Below, piece after piece: positions 1,755-59,416 of a stretch of DNA of 64,000 nucleotides. Position numbers and translations under genes: made by a program. This stretch comes from Demequina activiva. GTDB taxonomy: Bacteria; Actinomycetota; Actinomycetes; Actinomycetales; Demequinaceae. The DNA lies in the NCBI RefSeq assembly GCF_016862815.1, contig NZ_BONR01000001.1, positions 1 to 64,000 on the forward strand. Direction: 5' to 3'. The notes under the pieces are model-generated. The model had not been told where the DNA came from. It saw only the letters and a program-made list of their open reading frames with translations, and ran no database searches. Numbering within the stretch: position 1 is the first letter of the stretch; each line of letters opens with the position of its first letter.

Positions 1755-2577
1755 AGGCGCCGGTGCGCATCAGGTTCTCGCGGAGCTTCTTGACGGCGCC
1801 GGAGTGGATCTGCGAGACGCGGGACTCGGTCACGCCCAGGATCTGGCCGATCTGCGCGAGCGTGAGGTTCTCGAAGTAGTACAGGCGCAGCACCTCCTGC
1901 TCGCGATCGCGCACGCTCTGGATCGCGCCGGCCAGCAGCGTGCTGGTCTCGCGCACCTCGACGGACAGCGACGCCTCGGGCGCAGCGTTGTCGAGCACCG
2001 CGTCGATCGCACGCGTCTCGCCGCCGGCCACCATCCCATCGAGCGCCGCCACGTGCGACAGCGCGACCTGCGCGCGGACCGTGCGCACCTCGGCGGTGTG
2101 CCAGCCCAGGTGGGCCGCGATGTCCTCGTCCGTCACCGGGCGCATCAGGGTCTGCTCGAGGGTGCGAGCGGCGTGCTCGACGGTGCGTGCCTTGGAGCGC
2201 ACGGACCGCGGCACCCAGTCAGCGGCGCGCAGCTCGTCGATGATGGCTCCGCGGATGCGCTGGCCGGCGTAGGTCTCGAACTTGAAGCCGCGGGCCGGCT
2301 CGAACTTCTCGACCGCGTCGATGAGTCCGAACGTTCCATAGCTCACGAGGTCTGCCAGCTCGACCGTGTCCGGCAGACGCCCGATCATCCGGGTCGCGAC
2401 CTGGGTCACCAGCGGCGCGTAGTGCGTGATGAGCGCGTCGCGGGCGTCGCGACGGGTGGCGCCGTCGTCAGCGAGATCGCTCCACCACTGGTCCAGCTGC
2501 GACGCATCCGCGCGCGGCGGCGCGAAGGTCATGGGCTCCTCGGTGTCCTGCGACAGCACGGGGTTCAGGCTGGACAT
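1747..2577 (-). CDS. whiG: FliA/WhiG-family sigma factor
   Basis: A 276-residue sigma-70 factor of the FliA/WhiG type. Region 2 (about 45-120) has ELADLVSYGTFGLIDAVEKF and FETYAGQRIRGAIIDELR. Region 3 (about 125-195) contains VTDEDIAAHLGW, and region 4 (about 215-270) has LTLAQIGQILGVTESRVSQIHS as the -35-binding helix-turn-helix. Its place between xerC and rpsB matches Streptomyces whiG, which drives sporulation there. In a non-sporulating actinobacterium the target could instead be motility or another developmental regulon, and no flagellar genes are visible here. GGGAG sits 5 nt before the ATG, and xerC ends 9 nt upstream, so the two are probably co-transcribed. Confidence 0.88.
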   Translation of the reverse strand: MSSLNPVLSQDTEEPMTFAPPRADASQLDQWWSDLADDGATRRDARDALITHYAPLVTQVATRMIGRLPDTVELADLVSYGTFGLIDAVEKFEPARGFKFETYAGQRIRGAIIDELRAADWVPRSVRSKARTVEHAARTLEQTLMRPVTDEDIAAHLGWHTAEVRTVRAQVALSHVAALDGMVAGGETRAIDAVLDNAAPEASLSVEVRETSTLLAGAIQSVRDREQEVLRLYYFENLTLAQIGQILGVTESRVSQIHSGAVKKLRENLMRTGAFM

Positions 2578-2586
2578 GGATGCTCC

Positions 2587-3525
2587 CTAGGCGCGCGGGT
2601 GCGCGAGTTGGTAGGTGGCCCGCAGGCGTTCTGCGGACACGTGGGTGTAGCGCTGGGTCGTGTTGAGGCTGGCGTGACCGAGCACTTCCTGGACGGAGCG
2701 GAGATCGGAACCTCCGGTGAGCAGATGCGTCGCTGCCGTGTGGCGCAGCGCGTGCGGGGCGATGTCGGGAAGGCCAGCGGCACGGCACAGGGAGTGGATG
2801 GCCTCGCGCACCTGGCGCTGACCGACGCGCGACCCACGGCGCCCCAGGAACATCGCGGCGCCGGTCTCGGCGGAGACCAGCAGAGGGCGGGACTGATCGA
2901 GCCACTGCCGCACGGCACGAGCGGCCGGCACGCCGAACGGCACCACGCGCTCCTTGTCGCCCTTGCCGGTGACGCGCACCAGGCGCTCGTCGAGGTCGAG
3001 GTGCGCGACATCGATCCGGACCAGCTCTCCCACGCGCATGCCCGTCGCGTACAGCAGCTCCGCGATGGCCCAGTCCCGCATGTGGATGGGGTCGCCGTCG
3101 TCGCAGCGGGTCTGCGCGACGGCCAGCAGCGTCATCACGTCCGCCGGGCTCATCGCGGCGGGGATGGTGGAGGCCGGCCGCGCGGACGCGAGGCGCAGCG
3201 CGGGGTTGGCGTCGAGGTGCCCGGCGTCGTAGGCCCACGCGTAGAAGGTCCGCACCGCGGCGCCGCGTCGCGCCATCGTGGTGCGCGACAGCCCGGCGCC
3301 GGCCATGGCGGCCAGCCAGGACCGCAGGTCCGCCAGCTGGACGTCCGCGAGCACGGCGGTGCTGTGCTCCCCGGCGTCCTCGCCGCCGGAGGCGTGTGCG
3401 GCCAGGTGGAGCAGATCCCCGCGATAGGCGCGCACCGTGTTCTCCGAGAGCCCGCGCTGATGGCGCAGGTAACCCTCGAAGTGCGCGATCAGGTCGCGCT
3501 CGCCGGTCTCACCCCTCGTGGACAT
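2587..3525 (-). CDS. xerC: Tyrosine recombinase XerC-like
   Basis: A 312-residue site-specific tyrosine recombinase of the type that resolves chromosome dimers at dif. The N-terminal SAM-like DNA-binding domain covers about 10-110 and the catalytic domain 125-305. All catalytic residues are visible: Arg164 (GMRVGEL), Lys188 (GKGDKER), His258 and Arg261 (HALRH), His284 (LGHAS) and Tyr293 (RYTHV). Gene order with whiG and dprA agrees with XerC. It could act as the only Xer recombinase or pair with a XerD elsewhere. The ATG at 3525 is directly preceded by a -10-like CACAGT, suggesting a leaderless mRNA. Three ATGTGAC repeats lie just upstream. Confidence 0.92.
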   Translation of the reverse strand: MSTRGETGERDLIAHFEGYLRHQRGLSENTVRAYRGDLLHLAAHASGGEDAGEHSTAVLADVQLADLRSWLAAMAGAGLSRTTMARRGAAVRTFYAWAYDAGHLDANPALRLASARPASTIPAAMSPADVMTLLAVAQTRCDDGDPIHMRDWAIAELLYATGMRVGELVRIDVAHLDLDERLVRVTGKGDKERVVPFGVPAARAVRQWLDQSRPLLVSAETGAAMFLGRRGSRVGQRQVREAIHSLCRAAGLPDIAPHALRHTAATHLLTGGSDLRSVQEVLGHASLNTTQRYTHVSAERLRATYQLAHPRA

Positions 3526-3531
3526 GGTGAC

Positions 3532-3561
3532 ACTGTGGCACCGTCACATGAGTCAAATCAA
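3532..3561 (-). promoter_or_regulatory. Putative xerC promoter
   Basis: On the minus strand TTGATT (3556-3561), an 18-bp spacer and CACAGT (3532-3537) end 6 nt before the xerC ATG. That spacing places the transcription start at or within a base or two of the start codon. Confidence 0.45.
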
Positions 3562-3585
3562 CCCCTCCTGTCACATTTGTCACAT
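3543..3585. repeat. Three GTCACAT (ATGTGAC) heptamers upstream of xerC
   Basis: Exact heptamers at 3543-3549, 3570-3576 and 3579-3585, all in the same orientation. The last two are spaced 9 bp apart. They lie in an unusually AT-rich stretch and overlap or flank the putative xerC promoter, so they may be an operator. No known regulator is assigned. Confidence 0.55.
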
Positions 3586-3644
3586 CAATCTCACGTTTCA
3601 CCCCCTTTTTGTACCGTTTTGTCCCTGTTTGGTGCGACTCGAAA

Positions 3645-3659
3645 CGGTGCGATGCACCG
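3645..3659 (-). terminator. Weak hairpin after dprA
   Basis: CGGTGC-GAT-GCACCG forms a 6-bp stem with a 3-nt loop directly downstream of the dprA stop. On the minus strand it is followed by TTTC only, so it is a weak intrinsic terminator candidate for the yraN-comM-dprA unit. Confidence 0.4.
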
Positions 3660-3660
3660 C

Positions 3661-4860
3661 TCACGACAGCGAGACGCCCTTCACCCGCCTCCACCCTCCC
3701 CGGTCTCGCTCCACCATCCGGGCCGCCTCCAGTCGCCCCAACGCCGCCCGCAGCTCACCGGCTTCGAGGCCCGCCGTCGAGGCGATGAGGGCAACCTCGA
3801 CGGTGCGCGTCCCGATCGCGTCGAACGCGGCGCGATCGGCTGGCGCCGCGAAGTCGAGGCGTGTGGGCGGCGTGCCGTCCATCGCTTGAGGCTCCACCAC
3901 CTCGAGAGGGCCCACGAGCTCGCGGACGTCCGCTCCGCAGGTGACGAGCACCGCGGCGCCGTCCCGCAGCAGCGCGTGGCAGCCGGCAGAGCTGGCGCTC
4001 GTGACGGGCCCCGGGACCGCACCCACCGGGCGCACCAGCTCGTGCGCCCGCGCCACGGTGCTGAGCGCTCCGGACCTCAGCGCGGCCTCCACCACGACCG
4101 TGGCCCCTGCCGTGGCGATGAGGCGATTGCGGGTGAGGAAGCGCGACCGGTGCGGCGCCCACCCCGGCGGGACCTCGCTCACCACGAGTCCCTCGCGCAT
4201 CACGCGCTCGAGCAGATCCGCGTTGCCTGCCGGATACAGGCGGTCCACCCCTCCGGCCATGATGGCGAGCGTCGTTCCACCCGCCGCGACGGTCGCCCGA
4301 TGCGCCGCAGCGTCGATCCCGTACGCGCCGCCGGAGACCACGGTGCCGCCCTGACCGGACCACTCCCCTGCGATGCCCGCCGCGACGTGCTCGCCGTAGG
4401 CGGTCGCCGAGCGCGCGCCCACGATCGCGACCGAACGCTCGTCGAGCGATCGCAGGTCGCCGGCGCCGCGCACCCACAGCGCGAACGGCGCGCAGCTGCC
4501 AAGATCGTCGACGCAGGCCGGCCACTCGTCATCCTCTCGGGTGACGATCCGTGCTCCGCACGCCCGAGCGCGCCTCTGCAGCGCGTGCGAGTCGGCGCCC
4601 TCGAGACGGGGCGCCCACCGCGCGCTCGCGCGGATCGCCTCGTCGACGTCCCTCGGGGTGGCGAGCTCGAGCAGGCGCGCGGTGGCGGAGACCGGGTCCC
4701 GCGCGGCGAGCGCGCTCCACTCGAGAGCCTTCGAGGCCCCCAGCACCGACACCAGCGCACCCGCAGCGGCATCCGCCGGCTCCGCGATCGCGCTCCACAG
4801 GATCCACGCCCGCGCCTCGCCCTCCGGGCGCATCTCCCCCACCTCGTCCACGGGGATCAT
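3661..4860 (-). CDS. dprA: DNA processing protein DprA
   Basis: About 399 residues. DprA loads RecA onto incoming single-stranded DNA in natural transformation. The Rossmann-like core is clear: SVAIVGARSATAYG, VVSGGAYGIDAAAHRATV, GGVDRLYPAGN and RSRFLTRNRLIATAGATVVVEA. A C-terminal winged-helix region (about 325-395) follows. The start chosen at 4860 gives ATGA overlap with the comM stop, which argues for translational coupling; longer in-frame extensions lack support. DprA is widespread in bacteria not known to be competent, so competence here is only an inference. Confidence 0.94.
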   Translation of the reverse strand: MIPVDEVGEMRPEGEARAWILWSAIAEPADAAAGALVSVLGASKALEWSALAARDPVSATARLLELATPRDVDEAIRASARWAPRLEGADSHALQRRARACGARIVTREDDEWPACVDDLGSCAPFALWVRGAGDLRSLDERSVAIVGARSATAYGEHVAAGIAGEWSGQGGTVVSGGAYGIDAAAHRATVAAGGTTLAIMAGGVDRLYPAGNADLLERVMREGLVVSEVPPGWAPHRSRFLTRNRLIATAGATVVVEAALRSGALSTVARAHELVRPVGAVPGPVTSASSAGCHALLRDGAAVLVTCGADVRELVGPLEVVEPQAMDGTPPTRLDFAAPADRAAFDAIGTRTVEVALIASTAGLEAGELRAALGRLEAARMVERDRGGWRRVKGVSLS

Positions 4861-6374
4861 GCGGCCACTCCCCGGGATCGCAGCGTGAGGGCCTGGGCGA
4901 CGTGGTCGGCGTTCGGCTGCTCGACTCCTGCGAGGTCCGCGACCGTCCACGCCACGCGCAGCGCCCGGTCCGCTCCCCTGGCCGTGAGCACCCCGCGATC
5001 GAGCGCCTGCCACACCAGCGCGGCGCCGTCGCGCGGGGTGTGACGGCGCAGCCACGTGCCGGACGCGTGCGCGTTGAGCGCCCATCCGTGCGGCGCGAGG
5101 CGTGCACGCGCTCGCGCTCGCGCCTCGGCCACCCGTGCGGCTACCGTCGCCGACGACTCCCCTGGCTCATCCGCGCCGCCGCGCACCGGCAGCACCGTGA
5201 CCTGGAGGTCCACGCGGTCCAGCAGCGGCCCGGACAGGCGTCCGAAGTAACGACGCCGCTGGATCGGCGTGCAGGTGCAGCGCTCGCCGCTGCCGTAGTA
5301 GTGGCCGCACGGGCACGGGTTCGCCGCGAGGATCAACTGGAAGCGCGAGGGGTAGCGAGTCGCTCCCTGCGCCCGATGCAGCACCACCTCGCCGTGCTCG
5401 AGAGGCTGGCGCAGGGTCTGCAGCACGCGAGCCGGGAACTCGGGAGCCTCGTCGAGGAAGAGCACTCCCGCGTGAGCACGCGAGATCGCGCCCGGCCGGG
5501 CCAGGCCGCTGCCTCCGCCCACGATCGCCGCCGCCGAGGCGCTGTGGTGCGGAGCCTCGAACGGCGCCGTGCGCAGCAGGCCCCGGCTGGGATCGAGGGT
5601 GCCCGCGAGCGAGTGGATCGCGGTCGCCGTCACCGCGTCCTTGTCCGTCAGCGGCGGCAGGATCGTGGGCAGTCGCCGGGCGAGCATGGTCTTGCCCGCT
5701 CCAGGGGGACCGGACAGGAGCAGGTGATGCCCGCCTGCCGCCGCCACCTCGAGCGCCCACCGAGCCTCGGGCTGACCGCGCACCTCGTCCAGATCCACGC
5801 GCTCGGCGTGCGCCGCGGCGCGCACGGGAGCGGCGACGGGATCGCAGGCGACCGCCACCGCATCGGCTGCTCCATAGTGTCGTGCGAGCTCGGCGAGGGT
5901 GGTGACGGCGACCACCTCCACCCCGGGCACCAGCGCCGCCTCCTCCGCATTTCCCGCGGGGACCACCACGCGCTCGATCCCGCGATCGGCGGCAGCGACC
6001 ACCGCGGGCAGCACGCCGGGGATGGGGCGCACCCGACCGTCGAGGCCGAGCTCACCCAGATGCACAGCGCCGCTGGGCGCGTCCGCACCGATGCCTCCAG
6101 ACGCCGCCAGGACCGCGACCGCGATCGCGAGATCCGTGGCTGCGCCGGACTTGGGCAGCGACGCCGGCGACAGGTTCACGGTGATGCGGCGCTGCGGCCA
6201 GGGCAGGCCCGAGGACGCCGTCGCCGCACGCACCCGGTCGCGCGCCTCGGACAGCGCCGTGTCCGGCAGCCCCACGATCGTGAACCCCGGCAGCGACGAG
6301 CCGATGTGCGCCTCGACGTCGACCACGTGCCCGGTGAGCCCTGCCAGCACCACGGTGCGGGTGCGCCCGATCAT
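4857..6374 (-). CDS. comM: ComM/YifB-family AAA+ Mg-chelatase-like ATPase
   Basis: About 505 residues. ComM is a hexameric AAA+ helicase that promotes branch migration during recombination of transforming DNA. The sequence shows the N-terminal Lon-like fold (residues ~1-165, with GLPDTALSEARDRVRAA), Walker A GPPGAGKTMLARRL near residue 225, Walker B-like LFLDEAPEF, and a C-terminal Mg_chelatase region with a four-Cys cluster (ANPCPCGHY, GERCTCTP). It starts with ATGA overlap on yraN and ends with ATGA overlap on dprA, so yraN-comM-dprA is a tightly coupled operon. Confidence 0.94.
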   Translation of the reverse strand: MIGRTRTVVLAGLTGHVVDVEAHIGSSLPGFTIVGLPDTALSEARDRVRAATASSGLPWPQRRITVNLSPASLPKSGAATDLAIAVAVLAASGGIGADAPSGAVHLGELGLDGRVRPIPGVLPAVVAAADRGIERVVVPAGNAEEAALVPGVEVVAVTTLAELARHYGAADAVAVACDPVAAPVRAAAHAERVDLDEVRGQPEARWALEVAAAGGHHLLLSGPPGAGKTMLARRLPTILPPLTDKDAVTATAIHSLAGTLDPSRGLLRTAPFEAPHHSASAAAIVGGGSGLARPGAISRAHAGVLFLDEAPEFPARVLQTLRQPLEHGEVVLHRAQGATRYPSRFQLILAANPCPCGHYYGSGERCTCTPIQRRRYFGRLSGPLLDRVDLQVTVLPVRGGADEPGESSATVAARVAEARARARARLAPHGWALNAHASGTWLRRHTPRDGAALVWQALDRGVLTARGADRALRVAWTVADLAGVEQPNADHVAQALTLRSRGVAA

Positions 6375-55485: not shown

Positions 55486-55512
55486 CCAACCCTGGGGCCC
55501 TCCGCGCCGAAC
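55486..55512 (+). promoter_or_regulatory. SigK-type promoter of dipZ
   Basis: CCAACC (55486-55491), 15 nt, CCGAAC (55507-55512), then 7 nt to the dipZ ATG. The same pattern precedes lipoprotein 2. It resembles the promoter I recall for mycobacterial SigK (CCATCC and CCGAAT), and the mRNA would be leaderless. Confidence 0.6.
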
Positions 55513-55519
55513 ACTCACC

Positions 55520-57223
55520 ATGATCACCCTCGCCATCGTGGGCCTCGTGTCCGGCATCATCACGGCCATCAGCCCCTGCGTCCTGCCGGTGCTGCCGGCG
55601 ATCCTGACCAGCTCGATCCAGGACGGCGCCACGTCGCGGCGGCGTCCCATCGTGGTGGTGGCGGGACTCGTCACCAGCTTCGCGTTCTTCACGCTCCTGG
55701 GCGGGCTGCTGCTGAGCTCGCTGGGCCTGCCGGACGATCTGCTGCGCTGGGCGGGCATCGTGATCCTCGCGATCGTGGGACTGGGGCTGGCGATCCCGCC
55801 GCTGGGCGAGCTCCTGCAGCGGCCGTTCGAGCGCATCCGCCCGCTCAAGATGGACAGGGACGGCAACGGCTACGTGATGGGCCTCGCGCTGGGACTGGTG
55901 TTCGTGCCGTGCGCCGGACCCATCCTCGCGTCCATCACGGTGCTCGCGGCGACCAACGGCATCAGCTGGGGTCTCGTGGCGCTCACGGTGTCGTTCAGCC
56001 TGGGCATCGCGGTGCCGCTGCTCGCGTTCGGACTCGCGGGTCAGGCCATGGGAAGCCGCATCAAGGCGGTGCGCACACGCCTCCAGGGCATCCGGATCGC
56101 GTCCGGCGTGATCCTCATCGCGACCGCGGTGGTGGTGGCGACCAACGTTGCGGAGCCGCTCCAGCGCTGGGTGCCGTCGACCCTGGCGAGCATCCAGGAG
56201 ACCATCGAGGACAACGACAGCGTGCGCGACGAGCTCGACGTGCTCACCGGGCGGGAGGAGGCCCAGCCCGCCTCGGGAGACGCGCTCACGTTCGACCAGT
56301 GCGAGGAGGGGCCGCCGGACCAGCTGCAGAACTGTGGCCCTGCGCGTGACCTGCCCGGGATCCAGGAGTGGCTCAACACGCCTGAGGGCCAGGCCCTCGA
56401 CATCGACGAGCTCACCGCGGACGGCGGGGTGGTCCTGATCGACTTCTGGACCTACTCGTGCATCAACTGCCAGCGCACGTTCCCCTACCTGACCGCATGG
56501 GACGAGCGCTACCGCGACGACGGCCTGACGATCATCGGCGTCCACTCCCCCGAGTTCGCGTTCGAGAAGGTCGTGGGCAATGTCGAGGACGCGACCGAGC
56601 GGTACGACATCGAGTACCCGGTGGCGATCGACAACGACTTCGAGACCTGGCGCGAGTGGGACCAGCGGTTCTGGCCCGCGCACTACCTCATCGACCAGGA
56701 GGGCGTGGTGCGCCAGGTGCACTACGGCGAGGGCCGCTACGAGGAGACGGAGATGCTCATCCAGCAGCTGCTCGACGCCGCCCCGCAGGCCGCCGTGGAG
56801 GCGGACACCGGCGGGCACACGCAGGGCCGCACGCCGGAGACCTACCTGGGCTACGGCCGCGTCGCCTACGCCGCCAACCTCGACGACATCCGCACCAACA
56901 CGCCCATCCAGTACTTCTACGACCAGGAGCTTCCCCGCGACCAGTTCGCCTACCAGGGCGAGTGGACCGTCAACGAGGAGCATGCGCTGGCCGGCGAGGA
57001 GGCGCGGCTCGAGCTGTACTTCTACGCCGCGGACGTGCACCTCGTGATGGCGGGCGAGGGCGAGGTCAGGGTGACGCTGCTCAACGACCCCGAGTACGAG
57101 CGCGTGGTCGAGGTGGACGGCACCAGCGACCTCTACGACCTGTTCGTGGGAGAGCCCACGCAGGACATCATGATCCTCGAGTTCACGCCGGGCATCGAGG
57201 CGTATGCCTTCACGTTCGGGTAA
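55520..57223 (+). CDS. dipZ: DipZ-like CcdA-thioredoxin fusion
   Basis: 567 residues. The N-terminal CcdA domain has six membrane helices with one redox Cys in ISPCVLPVLPAIL (Cys20) and one in VFVPCAGPILA (Cys131). An outer TlpA/thioredoxin domain (about 285-430) carries WTYSCINCQR with Cys314 and Cys317. A C-terminal beta domain (about 440-567, QYFYDQELPRDQFAYQGEW) is typical of DipZ. It passes reducing power from the cytoplasm to exported proteins. In M. tuberculosis dipZ belongs to the SigK regulon, and here sigK-rskA follows 0.7 kb downstream. Confidence 0.9.
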   Translation: MITLAIVGLVSGIITAISPCVLPVLPAILTSSIQDGATSRRRPIVVVAGLVTSFAFFTLLGGLLLSSLGLPDDLLRWAGIVILAIVGLGLAIPPLGELLQRPFERIRPLKMDRDGNGYVMGLALGLVFVPCAGPILASITVLAATNGISWGLVALTVSFSLGIAVPLLAFGLAGQAMGSRIKAVRTRLQGIRIASGVILIATAVVVATNVAEPLQRWVPSTLASIQETIEDNDSVRDELDVLTGREEAQPASGDALTFDQCEEGPPDQLQNCGPARDLPGIQEWLNTPEGQALDIDELTADGGVVLIDFWTYSCINCQRTFPYLTAWDERYRDDGLTIIGVHSPEFAFEKVVGNVEDATERYDIEYPVAIDNDFETWREWDQRFWPAHYLIDQEGVVRQVHYGEGRYEETEMLIQQLLDAAPQAAVEADTGGHTQGRTPETYLGYGRVAYAANLDDIRTNTPIQYFYDQELPRDQFAYQGEWTVNEEHALAGEEARLELYFYAADVHLVMAGEGEVRVTLLNDPEYERVVEVDGTSDLYDLFVGEPTQDIMILEFTPGIEAYAFTFG

Positions 57224-57339
57224 AGAGGCTTGACGGAGATTTTGCCCGTCTCGCCAGGCAGAACCGGACAAACCGTGCGTTCATGGACATGACGGGTCAC
57301 GGTGGCCCGTCTCTGTTCACTACCTCAGGAGGAATCCAC

Positions 57340-57489
57340 ATGGATCTTCGCAAGGCAGCAGCAGGTTCTGCGGCCGTCATCCTGGGCGGGGTGCTCCTCG
57401 CCGGGTGCGGCGACTCCGCCGCTGATGACGGCGACGACATGGACTCGACCATGGAGCCCACCATGGAGTCCACGATGGACGCCGGCTAG
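57340..57489 (+). CDS. Tiny Met/acidic-rich lipoprotein 1
   Basis: 49 residues with AGGAGG upstream of the ATG. The lipoprotein signal ends at LLAGC (Cys23). The mature part is only ~27 residues: short acidic runs followed by repeated TMEP/TMES and MD units, with four Met. It shares signal length, lipobox and style with lipoprotein 2 and is surely its paralogue. It lies 117 bp behind dipZ and is closed by a strong hairpin. Function unknown; binding of copper or another soft metal, or acting as an oxidisable Met sink, is a guess. Confidence 0.75.
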   Translation: MDLRKAAAGSAAVILGGVLLAGCGDSAADDGDDMDSTMEPTMESTMDAG

Positions 57490-57515
57490 GCGTTCCTTCC
57501 CTCACCACCGAACAA

Positions 57516-57544
57516 GGGCGGTCGACTGAGCGGGTCGGCCGCCC
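57516..57544 (+). terminator. Hairpin after lipoprotein 1
   Basis: GGGCGGTCGAC (57516-57526) pairs with GTCGGCCGCCC (57534-57544) through 11 pairs with one G-T wobble and a 7-nt loop. No T-tract follows. It separates dipZ-lipoprotein 1 from the lipoprotein 2-sigK unit. Confidence 0.55.
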
Positions 57545-57565
57545 TCACTCATGCCCGGGCCCGAC

Positions 57566-57592
57566 CCATCCGCGCCCGCCATGGTCCCGAAC
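57566..57592 (+). promoter_or_regulatory. SigK-type promoter of lipoprotein 2-sigK-rskA
   Basis: CCATCC (57566-57571), 15 nt, CCGAAC (57587-57592). The spacing is identical to the copy before dipZ. It is about 50 bp before the lipoprotein 2 ATG and would make sigK autoregulated. Confidence 0.6.
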
Positions 57593-57641
57593 CACTCGTG
57601 ACGGGCTCGACCGGGCTCGTCCCACGAATCTGGGAGGAATC

Positions 57642-57905
57642 ATGCCGAAGCTGCGCACCCTGGCCGTCCCGGCCGTCATCCTGTTGTCCGGAACGCTGCT
57701 CGCCGGCTGCGGCGACGACACCGAGCCCGCCTCCGACACCTCCGACGAGATGATGGAGGAGACCATGGAGCCCACCGAGGACGCCATGATGGAGGAGGAC
57801 TCCATGGAGGACGAGGACGCCATGGAGGAGGACTCCATGGAAGAGGAGGACTCCATGGAGGACGACTCGATGGAGGATGAGGACGCCATGGAGGACGAGA
57901 GCTGA
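57642..57905 (+). CDS. Met/Asp/Glu-rich repeat lipoprotein 2
   Basis: 87 residues, GGGAGGA upstream. The lipobox is LLAGC (Cys23). The mature ~65 residues contain almost only Asp, Glu, Met, Ser, Ala and Thr, with eleven Met in units such as DSMEDED and DAMEED. The coding DNA carries a degenerate GAGGACTCCATGG tandem repeat, so copy number may vary by slippage. No folded domain is likely. It is 18 nt before sigK, so it is almost certainly co-expressed with it. Sensor ligand, metal chelator or Met-oxidation target are all open. Confidence 0.78.
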   Translation: MPKLRTLAVPAVILLSGTLLAGCGDDTEPASDTSDEMMEETMEPTEDAMMEEDSMEDEDAMEEDSMEEEDSMEDDSMEDEDAMEDES

Positions 57906-57923
57906 CCGGCCGATACTGACTGC

Positions 57924-58583
57924 ATGAGCCCGAGCGACGACGAGGAGGACCGCATGAGCGCCGAACGCCACCTGCGCGCGGTTCCCGACGCGCGCTCGGG
58001 CGATGCGGTCGCCGGCGCTGAGCCAGGGCCCGCCCCGGACCTCACCGACCTGCTGGAGCGGACCGCGCGCGGCGATGGCGGCGCATACGAGCAGCTCTAC
58101 GGGCTCGTCGCCGGGTCCGTGTTCGGCCTCGCACTGCGCATCGTCCGCGATCGCGACATGGCCGAGGACATCGCCCAGGAGGCGCTGGTCGAGGTGTGGC
58201 ACCGCGCCGCGCGCTTCGACGCGGGCCTGGGCAGCGCGCGCTCGTGGATCCTCACGATCGCGCACCGCCGGGCCGTGGACCGGGTGCGCTCGGAGCAGGC
58301 CCACACCACCCGCATGCACACCCATGGCGTGCGCGAGGAGGCGGCCCCCGCGGAGCAGGACTCGGTGGTCGACACGCTGTATCAGGAGTGGGAGGCCAGT
58401 CGCGTGCGCGCCGGCATGCAGGCCCTCACGGAACGCCAGCGCGAGGCGCTCGAGCTGTGCTACTTCAAGGGCTTCACCCACCGTGAGGCCGCCCAGGCGC
58501 TGGACGTGCCGCTGGGCACCGCGAAGGCCCGCATCCGCGATGGCCTGATCAAGCTGCGAGACGCGATGGGAGCAGAGCGATGA
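57924..58583 (+). CDS. sigK: ECF sigma factor SigK-like
   Basis: 219 residues (a later ATG at 57954 is possible). Region 2 is AYEQLYGLVAGSVFGLALRIVRDRDMAEDIAQEALVEVW, and region 4 (about 160-210) is LTERQREALELCYFKGFTHREAAQALDVPLGTAKARIRDGL. It belongs to the SigK group (ECF19), which controls dipZ and secreted proteins in mycobacteria. It overlaps rskA by ATGA. The promoter pattern upstream suggests positive autoregulation. Confidence 0.88.
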   Translation: MSPSDDEEDRMSAERHLRAVPDARSGDAVAGAEPGPAPDLTDLLERTARGDGGAYEQLYGLVAGSVFGLALRIVRDRDMAEDIAQEALVEVWHRAARFDAGLGSARSWILTIAHRRAVDRVRSEQAHTTRMHTHGVREEAAPAEQDSVVDTLYQEWEASRVRAGMQALTERQREALELCYFKGFTHREAAQALDVPLGTAKARIRDGLIKLRDAMGAER

Positions 58584-59416
58584 CCGACTCGATCCACTCC
58601 CTGGTGCCCGCGTACGCCGTCGACGCGCTCGAGCCCGACGAGCGCGCCATGGTGGAGCGTCACCTGCGCGAGTGCACGGACTGCCGCGAGGACCTGGCCG
58701 CGTTCCGCGCCGCGACCGCGGCGCTGGCCGACGCCGAGGCCGCCGCTCCCCCGCTGTCGCTGCGCTCCCGCGTGATGGCCGAGGTGGCGCGCACGTCTCA
58801 GCTCACGCCGGACGCCGCTGAGGCGCCCAGCACCGATCCCATTCGCGTCGCCGCCACGTTCGACTCCCCCGGCGGCGCCGGCCACGAGGAGGGCTCGAGC
58901 GCTGCCGCGGCCGCGCACGCGAGGGACGACGACCTCGCCGGTCGCCGTGACCGCCGCGGCGTGCGCCGCTGGATGCCTGCCCTGGCGGGAGCGGCCGCGA
59001 CGGTGGCCGTGGCCGCCGTGGGTCTGGGCATGGCTGGAGCGTTCTCCGCGGACGATGCCGCGACCGAGGTCGCGCTCGAGAAGGACGTGATGATGGTGAC
59101 GTCCGCCCCTGACGCGACCAGCATGGACGTGGACCTCGGCAATGGGCACCTCGTGAAGTCCGACCGCATGGACGCGTTCGTCCTCATGGGCGCCGCCGCT
59201 CCGATGCCGGACAAGGGCACCGAGTATCAGCTGTGGCTGATCATGGAGGACGGCAGCAAGGTGGCCGGCCCCACGTTCATGCCCGAGGACGACGGCGAGT
59301 ACATGACCGTGATGCACGGCGACATGGACGGCGTCGTGGCCGTCGCCGTCACGTGCGAGCCCCCGGGCGGGTCCGACGAGCCCACCACCGAGGCGGTCTC
59401 CGAGGTGATCCTCTAG
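58580..59416 (+). CDS. rskA: Anti-sigma-K factor RskA-like
   Basis: 278 residues. The N-terminal zinc anti-sigma domain has His28-x3-Cys32-x2-Cys35 (VERHLRECTDC). One membrane helix is near 132-157, and the outer part is an RskA C-terminal domain (TEYQLWLIMEDGSKVAGPTFMPEDDGEY) unusually rich in Met (about ten). It should hold SigK at the membrane until the outer domain senses a signal and proteolysis follows. The Met richness parallels the two lipoproteins. The TAG stop overlaps the next convergent gene in CTAG. Confidence 0.88.
   Translation: MTDSIHSLVPAYAVDALEPDERAMVERHLRECTDCREDLAAFRAATAALADAEAAAPPLSLRSRVMAEVARTSQLTPDAAEAPSTDPIRVAATFDSPGGAGHEEGSSAAAAAHARDDDLAGRRDRRGVRRWMPALAGAAATVAVAAVGLGMAGAFSADDAATEVALEKDVMMVTSAPDATSMDVDLGNGHLVKSDRMDAFVLMGAAAPMPDKGTEYQLWLIMEDGSKVAGPTFMPEDDGEYMTVMHGDMDGVVAVAVTCEPPGGSDEPTTEAVSEVIL

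Follow-up and report, generated by a model that had tools for sequence, protein, structure and literature searches.

Which genes does a SigK-type sigma factor serve when the fasciclin antigen often encoded beside it gives way to a methionine-rich lipoprotein, and to what might its anti-sigma factor respond? The question is raised by a locus of Demequina activiva (positions 55,486 to 59,416 of a 64-kb window, the whole stretch of 64,000 nucleotides analysed here), in which dipZ, two tiny lipoprotein genes, sigK and rskA are contiguous. These five genes had been named in an original prediction made from the letters alone, and all were found at the predicted places with the predicted identities. 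The mycobacterial SigK regulon reportedly takes in dipZ, a likeness to Demequina, together with mpt70.

Comparison across the genus, which supports the regulation well, indicates that the locus is real, conserved and biologically coherent; the chemistry proposed for it is conditional throughout. We are highly confident that the predicted regulon has SigK-type promoters before dipZ (with lipoprotein 1), before lipoprotein 2-sigK-rskA (autoregulation) and before two tandem TlpA-like lipoprotein genes. On balance we lean towards an extracytoplasmic redox regulon governed by SigK1/RskA1, with this Demequina locus at its core; the lipoproteins would then be oxidant sinks and RskA possibly a sensor of methionine (Met) oxidation.

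Results

Two promoters are fixed in spacing and position

According to the prediction, the same bipartite motif, CCAWCC-N15-CCGAAC, precedes dipZ and lipoprotein 2, and these are indeed the only two exact sites in the window (Table 1). A relaxed search of the window returned 16 matches, 14 of them with one or two mismatches, a count not above chance (shuffle mean 11.95). The complete D. activiva assembly (2,471,820 bases, 7 contigs; contigs, genomes and loci are denoted C, G and L) holds three exact sites, the third of which (C3:329610) overlaps open reading frames (ORFs) of the other strand. Across 44 Demequina genomes the exact motif occurs 105 times, against seven for the reversed pattern, far above chance, and about 40 of these sites belong to the sigK locus. 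Random occurrence of the motif, for which a genome-wide check had been proposed, is not what these counts and the fixed positions at the targets indicate.

SigK1 is present in 40 of the 44 genomes at a score of at least 200 bits (not in G022, G032, G037 or G039), and the genus comparison comprises these 40 sigK loci, namely the window and 39 fetched relatives. Allowing up to two mismatches, the motif begins exactly 34 nt 5′ of the dipZ1 ATG in all 35 readable copies (16 exact, 16 with one mismatch, three with two), and all of them share CC at -34/-33 and CGAA at -12 to -9; dipZ1 or its start is missing from the remaining five loci. Because the motif is fixed at this distance, a leaderless dipZ transcript is expected. 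Before lipoprotein 2 the motif lies at -67 to -86 in every one of the 35 loci that carry the gene (21 exact, 11 with one mismatch, three with two), and the 15-nt spacer is invariant in the SigK-type promoters of the locus. Matched promoters of conserved position and spacing thus favour the proposal that SigK would act on dipZ as well as on its own operon. Of the 40 loci, 14 contain lipoprotein 1. Its best upstream site in the window has five mismatches and no motif is conserved among the 14 copies (G030 and G016 have a two-mismatch site further off); lacking a conserved motif of its own, it would be transcribed with dipZ.

A hairpin (Table 1) had been proposed to split the locus into two units, each with its own motif. 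The segment 57505-57560 folds at -29.4 kcal/mol (z -3.29; 2/200 shuffles equally good), and the best stem of 26-40 nt in the same gap reaches -23 to -38 kcal/mol, as computed without a shuffle control, in 12/12 genus loci with two lipoproteins; both values agree with such a division. No T run lies 3′ of the hairpin, and strong stems also occur in a few one-lipoprotein loci with long gaps. Judged by its fold, the hairpin likely ends the dipZ-lipoprotein 1 transcript. Separately, a GACGGG...CCCGTC hairpin in the gap between dipZ and lipoprotein 1 (57224-57345), just 5′ of the lipoprotein 1 ribosome site, is no stronger than shuffles (z -1.05).

SigK1 is a cysteine-less SigK-type factor paired with RskA

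The best NCBIfam model for SigK1 among 98 families is that of SigK, at 215.2 bits slightly below the cut-off of 226, and its best PDB match is SigK itself (E 1.2e-36). The conserved ATG at 57954 (MSAERHLRAVP) is probably the true start. Alignment to 4nqw showed that SigK1 is without cysteines 133/183 of SigK, with REA and RDA in place of RQC and RNC. According to the available text of PMC7509140, these cysteines are present in 94% of ECF18 and 56% of ECF19, two groups of extracytoplasmic function (ECF) sigma factors, and ECF19 contains many cysteine-less members. By sequence SigK1 is such a cysteine-less relative, and we name it SigK-type. The rskA gene follows directly with a 4-nt overlap, so that SigK1 has the RskA-family neighbour expected of a SigK. 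RskA1 combines an H-x3-C-x2-C zinc-finger-type N-terminus, a single transmembrane (TM) helix and a Met-studded outer beta domain. DipZ1 is built as a DipZ, with Pfam support for each part: a CcdA/DsbD-type membrane part, a TlpA/ResA-like thioredoxin with CINC and a C-terminal Thioredoxin_10 domain. Lipoprotein 2 had no Pfam match and no NCBIfam family above cut-off in profile searches; its tail, composed of pentapeptide-like units (MEDDS/MEEDS), is taken to be disordered.

Table 1 Features of the sigK locus and of related loci in the D. activiva genome
Feature	Position	Strand	Description
SigK-type promoter of dipZ	55486-55512	+	-35 CCAACC 55486-55491, 15 nt, -10 CCGAAC 55507-55512; ATG 55520
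dipZ (DipZ1)	55520-57223	+	Pfam PF02683, PF00578, PF08534 and PF17991, all above cut-off
Lipoprotein 1	57341-57490	+	49 aa, lipobox, Met/acidic tail
Hairpin between units	57516-57546	+	likely terminator of dipZ-lipoprotein 1; fold energy, no T run
SigK-type promoter of lipoprotein 2-sigK-rskA	57566-57592	+	CCATCC-N15-CCGAAC, exact match
Lipoprotein 2	57642-57905	+	87 aa, lipobox LLAGC, then Met/Asp/Glu tail
sigK (SigK1, SigK-type ECF sigma factor)	57924-58583	+	NCBIfam NF007228 best model, PDB 4nqw_A best match
rskA (RskA1)	58580-59416	+	PF10099 66.7 bits (cut-off 29.4), PF13490, NF052375 152.8 bits (cut-off 100)
SigK2/RskA2 pair	C1:123334-123966 (L100, L263)		CCATCC-N15-GCGAAC ~160 nt before aligned start; RskA2 Met-poor
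Fasciclin lipoprotein and second dipZ	C1:666905-669698 (L243)	divergent	promoters CAATCC-N15-GCGAAC and CAATCC-N15-CCGAAC
TlpA-like lipoprotein, first of tandem	C1:825397-826029	-	Met-rich linker
TlpA-like lipoprotein, second of tandem	C1:824763-825323	-	linker not Met-rich

Methionine is enriched in SigK-linked lipoproteins

An excess of Met had been noted in both lipoproteins and in the outer domain of RskA, and it recurs in our counts: Met makes up 15% and 17% of the residues after the lipobox cysteine of lipoproteins 1 and 2, respectively, and 11/126 outer residues of RskA1 compared to 3/132 inner ones. Pooled, the 35 lipoprotein 2 tails of the genus contain 18.6% Met and 43% Asp/Glu but no Cys, and the window tail is also without His. 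For comparison, Met was counted in the 45 residues that follow the lipobox cysteine, among the Demequina loci fetched. Unrelated putative lipoproteins (n = 25) had a median of 2.2% Met and a maximum of 4.4%, fasciclins (n = 10) a median of 15.6%, and TlpA-like lipoproteins (n = 11) a median of 4.4% with values up to 15.6%. A level of 8% was reached by all ten fasciclins and by 3/11 TlpA-like lipoproteins, giving 13/21 SigK-linked lipoproteins against 0/25 others (Fisher p 2e-6, a statistic that ignores kinship).

One could regard the tails as ordinary disordered spacers or repeat-expanded remnants of an MPT83 linker, with no redox role, the Met being incidental and that of RskA serving as packing residues. 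Consistent with this, the listed fasciclin linkers are acidic or Ser/Thr-rich regardless of Met, the tails vary in length (29-85 residues) as repeats do, and Met in fasciclin linkers outside Demequina ranges from 0 to 15% (68 readable cases in or near sigK loci). However, Met is confined to SigK-linked lipoproteins in our sample, individual tails hold 8-21% Met while their sequence changes, and RskA1 keeps nearly invariant Met at eight positions, at which Met is scarce in RskA2 and other RskA. We therefore consider a spacer without redox function unlikely. From the range seen outside the genus it follows that a Met-rich tail would be an older, variable habit of SigK-linked lipoproteins. The Demequina lipoproteins resemble the Met-rich linker of an MPT83-type fasciclin lipoprotein from which the fasciclin domain is absent, which suggests that an all-linker lipoprotein is a short step away; with tails this short and simple, descent cannot be proved.

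The spacing of Met bears on the signal, for which the prediction had offered copper or oxidants acting on Met. In the 35 lipoprotein 2 tails, Met-Met spacings are mostly 1, 5 and 6, with spacing 5 observed 123 times against 32 expected, and spacings 2 and 3 (MXM and MXXM) wholly missing against 60 and 50 expected. Were the locus devoted to copper or silver handling, the Met/acidic tails would bind Cu(I) outside the membrane, RskA would sense copper through Met, and DipZ and TlpA would resemble the thiol proteins of Scs-type copper tolerance. The missing spacings argue against Ctr1-like motifs, although descent from a repeated pentapeptide could alone produce the observed pattern. Moreover, the window tail has neither His nor Cys, and no copper gene was recognised among the recurrent motif targets. 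Copper handling is thus improbable, whereas oxidants, the other half of the suggestion, would fit better.

Methionine-rich RskA accompanies the lipoproteins

The outer part of RskA1 contains 8.1-13.7% Met in 38/40 Demequina loci. A second reading covered 137 loci, of which 29 were unreadable and dropped. RskA had 8.1-13.7% Met outside, against an inner median of 1.4%, in the 38 loci with a Met-rich lipoprotein (37 Demequina, one Actinotalea), while the 70 readable loci without one had an outer median of 2.4%, 68 of them at most 5.6%. Eight positions of RskA1 (171, 172, 182, 197, 203, 222, 234 and 242) are Met in 32-38 of the 40 sequences. An AlphaFold model presents the outer domain as a confident beta sandwich, with a predicted local distance difference test (pLDDT) score of 91-98 per block. 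RskA2 is Met-poor, at about 0-2% in the 10/12 loci that were readable (crude cut at residue 100).

Loss of the targets goes together with loss of Met. G031 keeps SigK1 and is without dipZ1, both lipoproteins and TlpA; its RskA has 5.4% Met and has lost 6/8 conserved Met. G010 is without the same genes and has lost 7/8 in the alignment, in a broken-up RskA reading from a genome 50% complete. The neighbourhood comparison proposed earlier thus yielded a Met-rich lipoprotein 2 with motif in 35 genus loci and a single further case among 57 named loci from outside the genus, namely Actinotalea sp. M2MS4P-6 (L450). There RskA has 9.8% Met, the dipZ motif stands at -34 from the aligned start, and a motif lies 66 nt before the lipoprotein. 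The SigK tree places the Actinotalea protein together with Cellulomonas L414 next to SigK2, a weakly supported position (96/79). In a locus of another family (L280 of G090, 1931-5041), the genes downstream of SigK-RskA encode a PF00174 molybdopterin oxidoreductase and a small lipoprotein whose short tail contains four Met.

Co-occurrence with Met-rich RskA, and the position of lipoprotein 2 directly before sigK-rskA behind one motif, would also be expected if the lipoproteins were regulatory ligands whose build-up at the membrane inactivates RskA or protects it from protease, as negative feedback. Yet the tail is of low complexity and fast-changing, unlike a binding surface, and both the fasciclin and a TlpA-like protein with a promoter of this kind have tails of the same composition. 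A ligand role is accordingly very improbable.

Fasciclin, a second dipZ and SigK2 lie elsewhere in the genome

The statement that no fasciclin gene is present was correct for the window but not for the genome. PF02469 was found in 16/44 Demequina genomes, including that of D. activiva (C1:669327-669698, 96.6 bits), where the protein is a lipoprotein with a Met-rich linker (16.7% Met) encoded divergently to a second dipZ. This DipZ2 is 46% identical to DipZ1, and 14 listed genomes of the genus contain it. The suggestion that the lipoproteins fill the place of fasciclin was well placed: lipoprotein 2 occupies the slot where relatives outside the genus often keep fasciclin, whose domain begins about 390-725 nt before sigK in 14/40 order-level loci and about 430-660 nt before it in 47/57 named loci. 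The fasciclin lipoprotein just 5′ of sigK that marks an mpt83-sigK-rskA cassette is therefore not found at this position, which holds a Met-rich lipoprotein.

A second factor, SigK2, about 50% identical to SigK1, is present in 12 genomes of the genus and is followed by RskA2 in the ten that are readable. In a tree of 104 SigK proteins SigK1 and SigK2 each form one clade (100/99). Fasciclin promoters have the -35 word CAATCC in 10/10 readable genomes with SigK2 and CCAWCC in 5/5 without it (G031, G025, G029, G022 and G010); dipZ2 promoters split alike (CAATCY in 10/10, CCATCC in 4/4). SigK2 may therefore run the fasciclin-dipZ2 pair in D. activiva, and in genomes that lost SigK2 the pair would have passed to SigK1. 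Genomes with SigK2 are dispersed across the SigK1 tree, whereas G025, G029, G031 and G010 form one clade; one event, with G022 as an additional case, may thus account for the promoter switch. The -10 word does not divide in this way: all ten fasciclin promoters from genomes with SigK2 have GCGAAC, but those from genomes without SigK2 have either CCGAAY or GCGAAY, and the four dipZ2 promoters of the latter genomes all have GCGAAY. Two further observations speak against a clean rule. The site upstream of SigK2 itself (n = 12) is CCATCC-N15-GCGAAC in four cases, has CAATCC in three and CAAACC in one, and is absent within two mismatches in four. In addition, G008 has SigK2 but not fasciclin. As a separate observation, G022 (92% complete) carries fasciclin with a CCATCC-N15-GCGAAC promoter, yet neither SigK1 nor SigK2 was found in a search of this genome.

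Exported thioredoxins share the promoter

Outside the sigK locus there are 65 exact sites in the genus, of which 60 were examined (the five of G038 were left out); two one-mismatch sites of D. activiva were added for the comparison of downstream ORFs. TlpA-like thioredoxin lipoproteins follow 13/60 exact sites (the one searched against Pfam has PF00578). At 4/60 the downstream gene encodes a polytopic protein containing an NPCG segment, which we read as CcdA-like (no Pfam match in the one tested). One exact site (L171) precedes a fasciclin gene. Other target groups recur (L134/L143; L138/L163/L177; L166/L173/L188), and many sites in the smaller groups or standing singly are probably due to chance.

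In D. activiva, CCATCC-N15-CCGAAT stands 34 nt before the ATG of the first TlpA-like lipoprotein of the tandem, as in the leaderless arrangement at dipZ; for the second (start C1:825323) the distance is 72 nt. TlpA-like relatives occur in 35/44 genomes. Among the 30 listed loci, second copies in the same genomes being left out, CCAWCC-N15-CCGAAY is exact upstream in 15 and has one mismatch in eight, and no site under three mismatches was found in seven. The mycobacterial mpt70 region is said to hold an Mpt53/CcdA-like pair. Similarly, in L140 and L154 an exported TlpA-like thioredoxin gene and one read as CcdA-like lie tail to tail, each with a SigK-type motif, whereas the two TlpA-like lipoproteins of D. 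activiva, of which one has a Met-rich linker, are encoded in tandem and a long way from the sigK locus.

Some further sites were recorded. A small multi-pass membrane protein of D. activiva has CCAACC-N15-GCGAAC 34 nt upstream of its ATG (C1:587409-587435, L189), again in the leaderless geometry of dipZ. CCATCC-N15-[CG]CGAAC is kept in three genomes before a gene named by eye as PAS-GGDEF-EAL-like (L188, C6:17219 in D. activiva; L166; L173); the gene may be under SigK-type control, or the site may be kept by chance within a conserved sequence. On the minus strand of L142 (G011), near position 980, a SigK-like motif lies inside a tandem repeat with units like CAATCCGCCCAGGCGGTCCGAAC.

Discussion

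The Demequina locus shares with the mycobacterial mpt83-sigK-rskA cassette an ECF sigma factor followed by RskA with an RskA_C domain and a lipoprotein gene just upstream, and in other families, too, these promoter words are found close to sigK or fasciclin. It differs in its upstream gene, which encodes a Met-rich lipoprotein lacking a fasciclin domain; the fasciclin gene and the second dipZ are located elsewhere. The cassette and its conserved SigK site are named in the available text of PMC7509140; SigK1 is without the cysteines 133/183 described there for SigK. A Met-rich outer domain of RskA is a further difference.

A second likeness is to Met-rich proteins of hypochlorite defence, for which Azospira SigF/NrsF with MrpX is reportedly a comparable ECF-controlled system with a Met-rich repeat protein. 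In Brucella, the ECF system BcrS/AbcS turns on bcrXQP, whose exported Met-rich BcrX, assigned to the MXKDX repeat type, belongs to a hypochlorous acid (HOCl)-resistance operon beside envelope redox enzymes (available text of PMC8315932). The Brucella pair differs in being, according to the same text, ECF16/NrsF with six TM helices. Its partner is MsrPQ, and the Demequina tail is lipid-anchored and acidic. When five lipoproteins were compared with penta_MxKDx (TIGR02953, cut-off 41 bits), the Actinotalea lipoprotein scored 42.4 bits, above the cut-off, and that of D. globuliformis 20.7 bits; two Demequina relatives gave no match. We therefore class the layout alone as a variant of the mpt83-sigK-rskA cassette, and lipoprotein 2 may act as a Met sink.

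Met is readily oxidised by HOCl and peroxides, and CcdA/TlpA proteins pass electrons outward. A model can be proposed in which an extracellular oxidant would oxidise conserved Met of the RskA1 outer domain, and the oxidised RskA1, altered or cleaved, would free SigK1. The cell would then export DipZ1, a CcdA-type electron importer with a thioredoxin domain, together with lipid-anchored TlpA-like proteins, which would keep envelope thiols reduced, while the lipid-anchored Met/acidic tails would absorb oxidant as sacrificial sinks. In mycobacteria, RskA binds SigK and is cut by an intramembrane protease (PMC7509140, available text). The parts of this model differ in strength. That the regulon serves envelope redox defence is reasonably probable; that the lipoproteins act as Met sinks we judge an even matter; and sensing by RskA through Met is a tentative suggestion. 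More tentative still is the combined form, in which RskA1 would be a Met-oxidation-gated anti-sigma factor and the freed regulon would export lipid-anchored Met sinks derived from an MPT83-type linker, sensor and effector sharing one chemistry without MsrP.

Several results weigh against this model. PF00174, the MsrP family, was found in none of the 44 Demequina genomes, although the same search was positive in 9/14 control genomes. MsrA and MsrB occur in 43/44 and 40/44 genomes, and no signal peptide was seen by eye in 30 listed loci of each; they look cytoplasmic. With no MsrP and no visibly exported Msr, the sinks would not be recycled by known enzymes, and a sink may need no repair if it is cheap and turned over. 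A SigK-type site precedes just one listed msr gene, the msrB of G026 (L345), where an exact CCAWCC-N15-CCGAAY lies about 155 nt before the domain, the sole case in 30 listed msrB loci. Lipoprotein 2 of the window has no match to penta_MxKDx. The association between RskA and lipoprotein Met has exceptions in G040, where RskA has 9.7% Met and a fragmentary assembly yielded no lipoprotein, and in L280 (8.0%), whose small Met-containing lipoprotein is more distant. It rests on few independent lineages. Met-rich fasciclin linkers also stand beside Met-poor RskA (L312, linker 15.2% and RskA 0.8%; L306, 11.9% and 0.8%); thus sensor and effector Met are not always together.

According to PMC7509140, what activates SigK/RskA is unknown. 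Demequina offers a natural version of the system with near-invariant outer Met, exported thiol and Met targets, and loss of most of these outer Met in one genome where the targets are gone, which turns the question of the signal into a concrete test in environmental bacteria. The finding also joins two lines of research, that on the SigK/fasciclin cassette and that on the Met-rich hypochlorite sinks of Proteobacteria.

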